64,000 nt of DNA, taken from contig NZ_CP090977.1 of NCBI RefSeq assembly GCF_021513255.1, forward strand, positions 496,001-560,000, written 5' to 3'. This DNA is from Planococcus sp. 107-1. GTDB lineage: Bacteria; Bacillota; Bacilli; Bacillales_A; Planococcaceae. How positions within the stretch are numbered: position 1 is the stretch's first letter; every line of letters begins with the position of its first letter. A program made the position numbers and the translations under genes. Below are positions 30,992-47,198 of the stretch, piece by piece. The notes under the pieces were generated by a model. That model searched no databases and was not told the origin of the DNA. It saw only the letters and a program-made list of their open reading frames with translations.

Positions 30992-31180
30992 ACAGAAATT
31001 CCTCCTAAAAGCGGTGATTGACTCCCATGATAGCGGAAATGGGCCAAAAGGGAAACGACGAGAAACTAAAACGGTTATTGTCTTTTTTAACAGAAAGTTC
31101 GTTTATTTCTGGTAAATCGCCTTGATTTTCCTTTCTAGACCAGTTACCCTTATAAAAAGCAAAATTGAATAAAGTGAATT

Positions 31181-31287
31181 CTTATCGAGAGAAGTCGAGG
31201 GACTGGCCCTATGACGCTTCAGCAACCAGCCGCAAGGTCAGGTGCTAAATCCAGCAGGCAAGTGATTGCCTGAGAGATGAAAAGGAA
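31181..31287 (+). ncRNA. SAM-I (S-box) riboswitch
   Basis: The conserved S-box words occur in order: CTTATCGAGAG at the 5' side of P1, GAGGGACTGGCCC, ATGACGCTTCAGCAACC, GGTGCTAAATCC, CAG and GAGAGATGAAAAGG closing P1. It binds S-adenosylmethionine and, when bound, favours the terminator directly downstream, shutting off yitJ-metH in methionine excess. Confidence 0.95.
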
Positions 31288-42277: not shown

Positions 42278-43099
42278 ATGAAACGCGTTGGATATTTCTT
42301 TCTTTACCTGGCTTTGATAGTAGTGGCATTATTTCAAATCCTCCCACTCATCTGGCTGTTCCTGTTCTCGTTGAAGAGCAACCAGGAAATCTTTGCAGGA
42401 TCACCGTTTTCTTTGCCGTCGGAGTTCAGATGGGAAAACTACCAGAAAGTCTGGGACGGGGGAATCGGCACGTATTTCCTTAATAGTGTGTGGATTACCA
42501 TTGCTGCGATCATCTTCACCGTATTATTCGCAAGCATGGCCGCATTTGCATTGACGCGCATGAAGTGGAAACTAAGCGGCCTTGTGCTCGGGCTTTTCAT
42601 GATTGGCTTGATGATTCCGATCCACTCGGCATTGATCCCGCTCTACAGCATGTTCTTAAGCGTCGACATGATCGATAACCCGTGGTCAATCGTCATCACG
42701 TACACCGCGTATAACTTACCGATCACCTTAATGATTCTGCTCGGTTTCTATTACACCTTGCCGCACGAAGTCGAAGAAGCGGCAATCATCGATGGCTGTT
42801 CGATCCATCGCATGTTCTTCCGCATCATTTTGCCGATGACTACGCCGATCATGGCGACTACGGTCGTCATCAATATGATCTACAACTGGAATGAATTCGT
42901 TTTCGTCAACACCTTCATCAGCTCGGAGAAATACAAAACGCTGACAGTCGGTATCCAGAACTTCATCGGGCAATACATGACCGACTGGGGTGCAATCGGC
43001 GCCACGTTGATCATCAGCGTCTTTCCGATCATCATCGCCTTCATCTTCTTCAGCAATAAAGTCGTTGAAGGGATTTCATCAAGTGCGGTGAAGGGGTAA
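42278..43099 (+). CDS. Sugar ABC transporter permease (MalG-like)
   Basis: This 273-residue protein has six spans and the EAA loop HEVEEAAIIDGCSIHRMFFRIILPMT. It pairs with the preceding permease, AGGAGG lies before the ATG, and it is the last gene of this operon. A long structured repeat follows its stop codon. Confidence 0.92.
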   Translation: MKRVGYFFLYLALIVVALFQILPLIWLFLFSLKSNQEIFAGSPFSLPSEFRWENYQKVWDGGIGTYFLNSVWITIAAIIFTVLFASMAAFALTRMKWKLSGLVLGLFMIGLMIPIHSALIPLYSMFLSVDMIDNPWSIVITYTAYNLPITLMILLGFYYTLPHEVEEAAIIDGCSIHRMFFRIILPMTTPIMATTVVINMIYNWNEFVFVNTFISSEKYKTLTVGIQNFIGQYMTDWGAIGATLIISVFPIIIAFIFFSNKVVEGISSSAVKG

Positions 43100-43102
43100 T
43101 TG

Positions 43103-43343
43103 GAAAAGCGGAGATGGCCGTTTAGCTTCGACAGGCATAAGACGGGTCGGCTGTGCGGCGTTCTTTGCCGCATGGCCGGCAGGGCTTATGTCCCAAGAAG
43201 CTGGCCATCGGAGTCTGGACACAAGAAAAGCGGAAGCGCCTGTTCAGCTCCGAAAGGCTTAAGGCAGAACACGGAGGAAATCCTGATTTCCGTAGTGGGC
43301 TGACTTAAGATCCGAGGAGCTAGGCGCTGGAGTCTGGACACAA
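43103..43343. repeat. Tandem pair of about 120-bp structured intergenic repeats
   Basis: Two copies (43103-43224 and 43225-43343) begin GAAAAGCGG and end GGAGTCTGGACACAA. Each folds on itself. In copy 1 GATGGCC pairs with GGCCATC and AGCTTC with GAAGCT. In copy 2 the equivalent stem is AGCGCC with GGCGCT and AGCTCC with GGAGCT, so the stem is kept though the bases differ. A third GAAAAGC start overlaps the following terminator. I recall similar elements between genes of Bacillales. There is no protein-coding signal. Confidence 0.8.
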
Positions 43344-43344
43344 G

Positions 43345-43392
43345 AAAAGCTTCACCTCATCAGGAATTGTATCTGAGAGGTGAAGCTTTTTA
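43345..43392. terminator. Bidirectional terminator between the transporter operon and yesL-type gene
   Basis: AAAAGCTTCACCTC and GAGGTGAAGCTTTT form a 14-bp stem with an 18-base loop, flanked by A and T runs. Confidence 0.88.
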
Positions 43393-44019
43393 TTGTGGCA
43401 GTTCACTCGTGCTTTTCTCAGCTGTTTTATTGAAAGCGTTCAAAGAAATCCACATCGTGATGAAAGCATAGGAACTTGCACCGAAGATGAACGCGAGCGC
43501 CGGCAAAGCCTGCATGATCAGAAAAAGCGGTACTAAGCAAAGCAGGATCAGCAAACTGTGAAGCGGATGGATCAGCATGATCAAAAATGCGTTTTTAAGC
43601 ACTTGGGTGGCTTTGATATCAAAATGCACAAATGTCGGGAATAGATAAAACAGGAACAATAAAACCAAAAGCATGAAAGCAAACAAAGGAATCGATATCC
43701 AGGTCAGATGGGCAGCGTCTAAGGCCAACAAATAGAAGACGTCAGCGGCGATTAACGCGCCAAGCAGCCAAACAAACAGGCCCATCACATTGCTTTTCAC
43801 GAAATCTTTCCGGTAATAATCCCAGAACGTACGGAAAACGGGCACGTCCGTCTGGCCGCGCAGCCATTTTCGGCAAACGGAGAACATTGCGGTTGTCGCA
43901 GGGAACAGCCCCAAAATGACCGCACCTGCTAATGTGAAAACAATCCAGAGTAAATTCAAATAGGCAAAACGGGTAATCCATTCGGTAATCTGATAAACGG
44001 TATTTTTAGTGGAATTCAT
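43390..44019 (-). CDS. YesL/DUF624 family membrane protein
   Basis: This 209-residue membrane protein has about five spans and the DUF624 features: FAYLNLLWIVFTLAGAVILGLFPATTAMFSVCRKW, an extramembrane TFWDYYRKDFVKSN segment and further spans. YesL-like genes accompany oligosaccharide ABC transporters in Bacillus loci (as in yes and xyl loci). Function unknown. It diverges from xylA and may share its XylR region. Confidence 0.85.
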   Translation of the reverse strand: MNSTKNTVYQITEWITRFAYLNLLWIVFTLAGAVILGLFPATTAMFSVCRKWLRGQTDVPVFRTFWDYYRKDFVKSNVMGLFVWLLGALIAADVFYLLALDAAHLTWISIPLFAFMLLVLLFLFYLFPTFVHFDIKATQVLKNAFLIMLIHPLHSLLILLCLVPLFLIMQALPALAFIFGASSYAFITMWISLNAFNKTAEKSTSELPQ

Positions 44020-44346: not shown

Positions 44347-45667
44347 ATGGCATATTTCGAGAACATTAACAAAATTAAATTTGAAGGTGCATCTTCAAAA
44401 AATCCATTCGCATTTAAATTTTACAATCCGGAAGAAGTGATCGGCGGAAAGTCGATGGAAGAAATTCTTCGCTACGCGGTTTCTTACTGGCACACATTCA
44501 CAATGGATGGCTCTGATCCATTCGGCGCCGGTACAATGAACCGCCCATGGGATAAATTCAGCGGAATGGATTTGGCTAAAGCACGTGTAGATGCAAGTTT
44601 CGAATTCTATGAAAAAATGGACGTGCCATTCTTCTGCTTCCATGATATCGACATTGCACCAGAAGGCAGCAACTTAAGAGAATCGAACCAAAACTTAGAC
44701 GTCATCGTTGCGATGATCAAAGATTACATGAAAGACAGCAAAGCGAAATTGCTTTGGAACACAGCCAATAACTTCACGCACCCGCTTTATCCACGGTGCT
44801 GCAACATCCAACCATGCAGACGTTTTCGCTTATTCAGCAGCTAAAGTGAAAAAAGGCTTGGAAATCGGTAAAGAACTTGGCGCCGAGAACTACGTGTTCT
44901 GGGGCGGCCGCGAAGGCTACGAAACATTATTGAACACAAACATGAAGCTTGAGCTTGATAACTTGGGCCGCTTCTACCATATGGCTGTTGATTACGCGAA
45001 AGAAATCGGCTTTGACGCACAATTCCTGATCGAGCCAAAACCAAAAGAGCCGACAACTCACCAGTACGACTACGATGTAGCGACTGGCCATGCATTCTTG
45101 CAAAGCTACGGTTTGGAAAACCACTTCAAATTCAATATTGAAGCAAACCACGCGACGCTTGCAGGCCATACATTCGAACACGAATTGCATTATGCACGCA
45201 TCAACAACATGCTTGGATCCGTTGATGCGAACCAAGGCGATCCGCTTCTTGGATGGGATACAGATGAATTCCCGACAGATCTTTGGTCAACGACGCTTGC
45301 GATGTACGAAATCCTTAAAAACGGCGGACTTGGCAAAGGCGGCTTGAACTTCGACGCGAAAGTACGCCGTGGTTCATTCGAGCCTGAAGATTTGTTCCAC
45401 GCACATATCGCGGGAATGGATGCATTTGCTGTCGGCTTGAAAGTTGCTCAGCAATTGATCGACGACAAAGTATTGGATTCCATCATGGAAGACCGCTACC
45501 AAACATATACAGAAGGAATCGGCCTCGACATCGTCGAAGGCAAAACGGATTTCCACAAATTAGAAGAGCATGCACTTGGCTTAACTGAAATCAAACAAAC
45601 ATCTGGCCGTCTTGAGCAGATCAAATCTACAATCAACCAGTACTTGCTGCAAGCTTTCGCTAAATAA
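44347..45667 (+). pseudogene. xylA: Xylose isomerase, one frameshift
   Basis: The joined protein is about 440 residues, family length. It has [10 protein letters not shown] with the catalytic His and Asp, [34 protein letters not shown] and [21 protein letters not shown], plus metal ligands [19 protein letters not shown]. The break lies near 44784-44790 in CCCGCTTTATCC, where the frame needs two added bases (or one removed) to read on into [20 protein letters not shown]. It converts xylose to xylulose. A strong GGAGG site precedes it and xylB follows. Confidence 0.92.
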
Positions 45668-45700: not shown

Positions 45701-47198
45701 ATGAAATATGTTATTGGAGTCGATCTTGGAACGAGTGCCGTGAAAATCCTGCTGGTCAACCAGCAAGGGGAAGTGGTGCACAGCGTTTCGAAATCGTATG
45801 CATTGATTCAAGAAAAAACAGGATACAGTGAGCAGAATCCGCACGACTGGGTGACTCAAACAACTTCCGGGTTGCTTGAGCTCCTCTCCGGTTTTGATGG
45901 AACTGCAGAAGACATTGAAGGCATCAGCTTCTCGGGGCAGATGCATGGCCTTGTGCTGCTTGACGAAAACAATGAAGTCTTGCGCCAGGCTATTTTATGG
46001 AACGATACAAGAACGACGGCTGAATGCCAGCAAATATACGATGTCGTAGGCAATGAGCGTTTACTCGAAATTACAAAGAATCCGGCGCTTGAAGGCTTCA
46101 CGCTGCCGAAAATTCTTTGGGTCCAAAAGCACGAACCGGAAATTTTTGCGAAAGCGAAATCGTTCGTTTTGCCAAAAGATTATTTGCGCTTCAAGATGAC
46201 CGGCAATTTGGAGATGGAATTCTCGGATGCTGCCGGCACTTTATTGCTCGATATCAGCAAAAAACAGTGGAGTACAGAAATCTGTGAGCTTTTGAATATT
46301 GATCCAAACCTGTGCCCGCCGCTTGTCTACTCGCATGACGAAGTGGGTACGGTTACGGCTGAATATGCAGAAGCTTCAGGGCTTGCACCGACCACGCGTT
46401 TTTGCTGGCGGTGCGGATAACGCGTGCGGTGCAATCGGTTCCGGAATTCTGGAAGACGGCAAAACGCTTTGCAGTATCGGGACTTCCGGTGTTGTGTTAT
46501 CTTATGAAGCAAGCAGCGACAAAGATTTTGGCGGCAAGGTCCATTACTTCAACCATTCGGCGCCGGACGTCTATTACACGATGGGTGTAACGCTTGCAGC
46601 CGGCTACAGTTTGACTTGGTTCAAGGAAACCTTTGCGGCGGATGAATCATTTGAAGATTTGCTTGCTGAAGTGGGTTCTGTTCCAGCTGGATCTAACGGT
46701 TTGCTGTTTACGCCGTATCTTGTCGGTGAACGCACACCTCATGCAGATGCGGCAATCCGTGCAAGTTTCATCGGGATGGATAGTTCCCATCGCCGAAAAG
46801 ATTTTGCCCGGGCAGTACTGGAAGGCATTACATTTTCTTTAAATGAATCCATCGAGATTTTCCGCGAAAGCGGAAAGGAAATTGATACGATTGTGTCAAT
46901 TGGCGGCGGTGCGCAGAACAAAGACTGGCTTCAAATGCAGGCAGATATTTTCAATGCGAAAATCGTACGCCTGACAAGCGAACAAGGTCCAGGAATGGGT
47001 GCAGCCATGCTTGCTGCTTTTGGCAGCGGGTGGTTTTCTTCATTAAAAGAATGTGCGGATGTCTTCTTAAAAGAAGATTCGCAGTATGAACCGAATCCGG
47101 CGAATGTAGAAAGCTATCAAAAACTTTTTTCTATTTATCAAGATATTTACGGACAAACAAAAGAGATGAACGAAAAGCTTTTGGCGTTCCGTAAATAG
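45701..47198 (+). pseudogene. xylB: Xylulokinase, one frameshift
   Basis: The joined protein is about 499 residues, of the FGGY family. It begins YVIGVDLGTSAVKILLVN (phosphate loop) and has SFSGQMHGLVLLDENN, LWNDTRTTAEC, FVLPKDYLRFKMTG and, after the break, GGADNACGAIGSGI, then VSIGGGAQNKDWLQMQADIF. Near 46395-46398 (ACCACGCGTTTTTG) two bases appear to be missing, since ACGCCGGTTTTTG would restore TPVFAGG. It phosphorylates xylulose for the pentose phosphate pathway. Confidence 0.92.

Follow-up and report, generated by a model that had tools for sequence, protein, structure and literature searches.

The tandem repeat behind the sugar permease gene of the window, i.e. the 64,000-nt stretch of Planococcus sp. 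107-1 DNA analysed here, belongs to a dispersed family of hairpins that resembles a small mobile element of a type so far undescribed. We infer movement and function of the family from sequence comparisons, and with moderate confidence we read its members, each about 120 nt long and non-coding, as mobile hairpin cassettes of the non-autonomous type that would land beside terminators or beside their own copies. Covariation that is strand-specific but independent of orientation, units that are exchanged while their sites stay fixed, and linkers typical of an array even where its units are dissimilar together offer a testable route to how small bacterial repeats without a transposase of their own spread, an old question for ERIC, bcr and similar elements.

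The first-pass annotation had described two adjacent units with common ends at 43103-43343, and both the arrangement and the coordinates are borne out (Table 1), the 39- and 47-nt ends of the two units being 77 and 79% identical. Each unit forms a long interrupted hairpin in the predicted fold, and both outer stems that had been proposed, GATGGCC/GGCCATC and AGCGCC/GGCGCT, occur in the sequence and form base pairs in the minimum free energy (MFE) fold of 43095-43350. The MFE of this segment is -115 kcal/mol as compared to -85.2 kcal/mol (sd 4.5) for shuffled sequences (z = -6.62), with none of 200 shuffles being as low. Alignment of the family's units resulted in the consensus ends GAAAAGCGG (5') and GGAGTCTGGACA (3'), and a 24-nt junction motif, allowing for up to three mismatches, matches twice in the window versus 0.00 expected matches. 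The cores of unit 1 (43103-43221) and unit 2 (43225-43340) score 123.8 and 111.3 bits, respectively, with the covariance model R1 described below. On the 3' side of the units a perfect inverted repeat with arms at 43345-43358 and 43377-43390 is read as a terminator.

Table 1. Features of the hairpin array and its surroundings (window positions)
Feature	Position	Strand	Remarks
Unit 1, subtype A	43103..43224	+	122 nt: 119-nt core plus linker CAA; inner helix GCGGC..GCCGC
Unit 2, subtype B	43225..43343	+	119 nt: 116-nt core plus linker CAA; inner helix GGAAATCCTGATTTCC
Conserved 5' end GAAAAGC	43103..43109	+	Unit 1; also opens unit 2 (43225) and the 3' flank (43344); A1 consensus
Conserved 3' end GGAGTCTGGACA plus linker CAA	43210..43224	+	Unit 1; identical letters at 43329-43343 in unit 2
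GAAAAGC, then terminator-like hairpin of the permease operon	43344..43395	+	Starts GAAAAGCTTCACCTC; inverted repeat
ABC sugar permease ORF	42278..43099	+	Stop codon ends 3 nt before the array

At the element within the window no family of Rfam 15 exceeded its gathering score, and a permissive Rfam scan returned only microRNA- and snoRNA-like matches, all below gathering score. Over 19 loci Rfam recovered only three riboswitches, all of them away from the units. The repeat family, a large one, has no match in Rfam 15. Elsewhere in the window we noted a SAM riboswitch (31179-31283, 86.2 bits) as well as xylose isomerase- and xylulokinase-like ORFs (44347-45667 and 45701-47198, named by eye), each consisting of two adjoining or overlapping frames, which reflects either sequencing error or decay.

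A BLAST search with the unit pair identified 59 places in the 3.51-Mb chromosome of Planococcus sp. 107-1. From the first 40 BLAST regions we cut 72 full units, 68 of them distinct, and aligned 66 of these (one degenerate unit and one near-duplicate were omitted) to build R1, which in turn gave 113 matches at E<=0.01. The five weakest were set aside and the remaining 108 were grouped into 65 arrays of one to four units (33 single, 22 double, 9 triple, 1 quadruple), demonstrating that further copies exist and that the family is dispersed. The units fall into at least three inner subtypes with one common outer architecture. Within arrays 12 of 49 unit pairs are near-identical (>=94%); the similarity of the others does not exceed 84%, so that they differ about as much as randomly chosen units. 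There is almost no linkage between the outer, middle and inner stems of units (Mantel r 0.09-0.15), which could also reflect saturation. For linkage we rely on the Mantel values alone, as tables by inner type were set aside because of an unreliable type label and the outer-by-middle four-gamete count (9/6600) is little informative. The idea that a 3' partial unit always copies unit 1 was dropped as it holds for some arrays only.

The 65 arrays leave one stretch of 541 kb (2,862,053-3,402,824) without a counted array; for 65 places drawn at random, the probability of a gap of 538 kb or more is P = 0.0015. One weak R1 match (2,969,362, E 3.4e-4), which is among those set aside, lies inside it. 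A second small repeat of about 75 nt (AAGAGATG..CATCTCTTTGCGACGAAG..GCAGGAGCAA) was observed inside or at the end of units, near 409,600-410,050 in Planococcus sp. 107-1 (L015) and at three P. ruber loci (L259, L278 and L284). Locus L029 (1501-1742) has two units identical in sequence between two co-directional ORFs, of which the downstream ORF is lipoyl-domain acyltransferase-like by eye.

The fold of the units is conserved by covariation. In the type-A set (39 units) 97.7% of the stem cells of 34 consensus pairs are paired, and double changes occur at 22 of the 34 pairs as compared to 13.0 in shuffles, with none of 500 shuffles being as high; when the partners were slid against each other only 3-7 pairs carried double changes. 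The mixed set (66 units) has 26 pairs that are 95.9% paired, with double changes at 21 of them (0/500 shuffles). For four of five measures no shuffle out of 500 was as high in either set, the count of further pair types being equalled by 6/500 shuffles for the type-A set and by 5/500 for the mixed set, and slid controls were 25-50% paired versus 96-98% observed in both sets. These counts stem from units related by descent rather than from independent events, a relatedness that the slid controls retain, and the consensus structure was derived from the same alignments that were scored, which favours the structure. Covariation is present and very strong, and together with the pairing in both unit sets it supports the proposal that the fold is selected. 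The two checks named in the first-pass annotation as able to refute it, on further copies and on covariation, hence both came out in its favour.

We also followed the structure in 22 vertical unit pairs. Differences were counted at 78 of 1664 stem positions as compared to 90 of 961 loop positions, i.e. stems change half as fast, and 27 base pairs changed on one side while still being paired, nine changed on both sides, and 30 were broken. The structure is therefore partly kept in place, and selection at each round of movement would not alone explain this. The retention of structure in place could be raised further if close copies replace units or if repair is templated by the hairpin, and compensatory change in place is not required by the mobile-cassette model.

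The arrays are placed at the ends of genes. With genes defined as longest-ORF calls, uncurated, 62 of the 65 arrays adjoin a gene 3' end and only three lie between two gene starts. An upstream gene is co-directional for 42 arrays, and in 34 of these the distance from stop codon to array start is -1 to 6 nt; starts within -2 to 8 nt of the stop were found for 24 of 28 arrays in P. ruber and 38 of 52 in other genomes of the genus. A scan for terminator-like sites on the element strand, which missed the terminator at the window locus, detected a site within 110 nt downstream of 29 of the 42 co-directional arrays versus 3.4 in shuffled flanks. For the 20 arrays that lie against both neighbours an element-strand terminator was found in 7 cases and an other-strand terminator in 17. 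The idea of an A-tract-plus-hairpin as landing site thus receives partial support only. An A/T preference is all that the six bases preceding the arrays exhibit, and an independent non-coding RNA gene, one of three roles suggested by the first-pass annotation, seems unlikely.

In P. ruber, the nearest named relative, R1 identified 66 matches in 45 arrays. Both flanks of 37 of these arrays align to stretches of Planococcus sp. 107-1 with 77-99% identity, the comparison covering the stretches around the arrays of Planococcus sp. 107-1 (eight P. ruber arrays fall outside), and 36 of the 45 lie at sites that are also occupied in Planococcus sp. 107-1. The site opposite P. ruber L289 was rejected as an empty site in Planococcus sp. 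107-1 as it contains a degraded remnant. For the 55 comparable units at shared sites (about 95-135 nt in length, a range comprising 96 of 108 units of Planococcus sp. 107-1 and 62 of 66 of P. ruber) the best P. ruber match is at the same site for 26 and elsewhere for 29. At the window site the order is A-B in Planococcus sp. 107-1 and B-A in P. ruber, and at least two further arrays (920781 and 1985669) look rotated likewise. These alignments indicate that the sites are old and that their unit contents change.

Dissimilar pairs within an array carry the same linker in 22 of 47 cases, as compared to 3.6 expected and a maximum of 12 in 5000 draws, and the last linker equals the suffix of the 5' flank in 20 of 77 arrays versus 9.7 expected (0/5000 shuffles as high), both counts pooling Planococcus sp. 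107-1 and P. ruber, where sites common to the two species are non-independent. The window locus obeys the same-linker rule (CAA, CAA) but not the flank rule (flank TTG, linker CAA). This misfit and the only partial match of linker to flank count against the mobile-cassette reading. As to target-site duplications, exact repeats of 5-9 nt directly at both ends were present in 0 of 60 arrays, and repeats of 4 nt in 10 of 60, a count that has no control of its own; the short linkers that agree with the 5' flank beyond chance vary in length.

We compared occupied and unoccupied states of the window site in 80 loci with a related permease, where R1 units (E<=0.1) were present only in P. ruber (L051); 12 other named loci of the genus carry no units at this site. 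In L053, L054 and L061, all without units, an A-tract plus terminator hairpin lies within a few bases of the stop codon, and in L055-L058 a short stretch ending GACAATAGAAAAGC is remnant-like, both as judged by eye. A loose end-motif pattern matches 12 of the 80 permease loci, most of which look like chance, and two Psychrobacillus loci (L063 and L064) have GGAGTTAGACA or GGAATTAGACA right behind the stop codon; the window site may have been visited, or inherited, beyond the genus. Both occupied and unoccupied orthologous sites are seen, and the unoccupied ones could be losses instead of reflecting a gain elsewhere.

The range of the family was determined with R1 using stricter filters in all three scans. 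Among 60 relatives it matched at E<=1e-6 in 36 of 36 genomes of the genus (Planococcus sp. 107-1 included) and in none of 24 others; at E<=1e-3 it matched in 110 of 150 genomes of the order, and at E<=1e-4 in 30 of 250 genomes of the class, 15 of these outside the family Planococcaceae. Copy number within the genus ranges from 7 to at least 60. Ends similar to AAAAG- and to CTGGACA- or CTAGACA- are mostly retained by the copies examined in 12 genomes from 11 further genera, with five short loci (L301, L308, L312, L315 and L325) left out, and a distant blastn search of plasmids and phages gave no match at E<=1e-3. The repeat is common within a single family of Bacilli, and its distribution outside that family is patchy.

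The plus strand forms the more stable fold in 61 of 66 units, and the stems of the mixed set, first pair excluded, contain 86 G·U versus 10 A·C cells. A role as mRNA stabiliser had also been suggested by the first-pass annotation, and in general form it would mean that the hairpins shield mRNAs of upstream genes against 3'-to-5' exonucleases and are maintained as 3'-UTR elements for that role, which we regard as distinctly doubtful. The frequent position within 6 nt of a co-directional stop codon and the slow change of stems, with nine double changes kept in vertical pairs, argue for this role, and so does the G·U:A·C ratio in Planococcus sp. 107-1 alone (73:5 behind co-directional genes versus 13:5 elsewhere, p 0.019; between vertical pairs 14:2 versus 9:6, p 0.11). 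The difference vanished, however, in independent data, i.e. 65 matches from 45 P. ruber loci and 134 matches from 60 loci in further genomes of the genus, the latter taken from the top of the R1 score list, with identical units of one array counted once and arrays without upstream ORF excluded: here the ratios are 163:24 and 79:12 (p 1.0), about 7:1 in both contexts, and pooling all three sets gave 236:29 versus 92:17 (p 0.23). As these alignments were fitted to the model structure G·U may be raised over A·C, equally in both contexts. Pairing is 0.957 for the 50 units behind co-directional genes as well as for the 16 elsewhere, arrays between tandem genes run with transcription in 17 cases and against it in 20, and four of the nine double changes occurred in arrays without a co-directional upstream gene (five with one). 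Context-dependent selection on mRNA was therefore rejected as general cause, and stabilisation of mRNA is not supported as what the fold is kept for, although the hairpins may have a local stabilising side effect. If transcription or replication biased the mutations, the bias should reverse with orientation, and the simplest reading is that the fold is selected on the element's own strand, which would be kept regardless of host transcription. No replication-strand preference was observed (30 leading versus 35 lagging arrays, terminus set by GC skew).

A linked transposase or recombinase was not found with the profiles Y1_Tnp, RVT_1 and Y2_Tnp, the last of which is uninformative as it gave zero matches anywhere, controls included. 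REP-like elements moved by a RAYT (IS200/IS605-type Y1 transposase) would be in line with hairpins at gene 3' ends and with the presence of Y1_Tnp in 25 of the 40 genomes scanned within the genus, Planococcus sp. 107-1 among them. We consider this explanation highly improbable and rejected the link: 12 Y1_Tnp loci (40,074 bases; 12 of the 33 matches listed) contain no unit even at E<=1, and copy number is not associated with Y1_Tnp, medians being 28 (15 genomes) and 51 (21 genomes; p 0.50, with top counts given as at least 60). Moreover, P. ruber has no Y1_Tnp match yet exhibits unit turnover, and the units are arranged head-to-tail and are about three times as long as REPs. The Y1_Tnp gene of Planococcus sp. 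107-1 (226-aa ORF, L202 1390-2070) has no unit within 3.3 kb. A reverse transcriptase was likewise rejected as mover, RVT_1 being present in only 3 of 12 genomes, including P. ruber but not Planococcus sp. 107-1.

The strongest rival to the mobile cassette is ectopic conversion of duplicated units, i.e. concerted evolution of ancient repeats at fixed sites by slippage duplication, with interiors swapped by ectopic gene conversion through the conserved ends. Duplication and ectopic replacement of the unit interior would create the same pattern without transposition, which counts against the mobile reading, as does the observation that none of 96 units in Planococcus sp. 107-1 has an identical copy at another locus (best dispersed pair 96.7%), meaning that no very recent jump is seen. 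The sharing of most P. ruber array sites by both species, the array-specific linkers, the near-identical duplicates within arrays and the almost unlinked stems are all consistent with conversion. Low linkage could also be saturation, however, and the 12 other named loci of the genus that are free of units at the window site, together with the range of copy numbers within the genus, imply that sites were gained or lost. On balance we regard concerted evolution without transposition as unlikely. A non-autonomous mobile repeat fits best of the three roles suggested initially, given dispersed copies, occupied and unoccupied orthologous sites, and unit turnover.

For mobile cassettes we suggest the following course. 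The folded plus strand would be the substrate of propagation, as single-stranded DNA or, less likely, as an RNA copy. A new unit would be placed 5' of an A-tract plus hairpin, provided either by the AAAAGC of a terminator or by the GAAAAGC of a resident unit, and a few adjacent bases may be copied as linker upon insertion. Units could be lost when slippage occurs between the direct repeats on either side of a hairpin. With insertion beside resident units and loss by slippage, existing arrays would act as safe landing pads. More speculatively, the units might be recombination cassettes recognised by fold and not by sequence. In this view the plus strand would leave the duplex by extrusion as single-stranded DNA and be excised or copied; a structure-specific recombinase would then join it 5' of any A-tract-plus-hairpin, be it a terminator or a resident unit, and copy a few of the adjacent bases. 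If true, the logic would resemble that of an integron but do without integron, genes and dedicated site, with the arrays behind genes serving as attachment sites.

In the literature covered, which included few subscription papers, we found no description of this hairpin family. The repeats bcr1-bcr18 of the Bacillus cereus group are interspersed non-coding repeats of 100-400 bp, bcr1 having tens of copies, and in the accessible parts of the sources mobile DNA features are described for them, with mobility tied to TTTAT motifs (PMC6542083, PMC3733652). To judge from these parts, the hairpin units resemble them as interspersed non-coding repeats in Bacilli; they differ from bcr1 in that only 1 of 60 arrays has TTTAT within 12 nt of an end, and they form mixed tandem arrays with array-specific linkers, of which the accessible parts make no mention for bcr. 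REPs, as far as the available text of the source describes them, are imperfect hairpins of 20-40 bp that carry GTAG or CGTC at one end and occur in high copy outside genes (PMC3733652). The units are imperfect hairpins in many copies outside genes, too, but measured against that description they are about 120 nt long, have GAAAAGC and CTGGACA ends, and lack GTAG/CGTC at their consensus ends; in contrast to REPs with a RAYT, no unit flanks the 12 Y1_Tnp loci.

Bhal-1 (74 nt) and Bant-1 are stem-loop families in Bacilli, Planococcus being absent from the family table in the accessible part of the source (PMC2267715). The units share with them the nature of intergenic stem-loop repeats of Bacilli, the differences being the length of Bhal-1 and the missing entry for Planococcus. 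ERIC and RU-1 are described in the available text as 127-bp units with terminal inverted repeats and TA duplications (PMC2759123); going by this text, the units are comparable in length, intergenic, and form a stable stem-loop, but their terminal 10-12 nt pair at only two positions. They also differ from MITEs in that there are no terminal inverted repeats of 15-30 bp, the long stem of the units beginning at column 11. The attC sites of integrons are recognised by structure as a folded single strand, and their cassette arrays change order. No gene cassettes lie between the units, which abut with short linkers, and the resemblance is one of logic only: recognition by structure, as for attC, and arrays with changing order.
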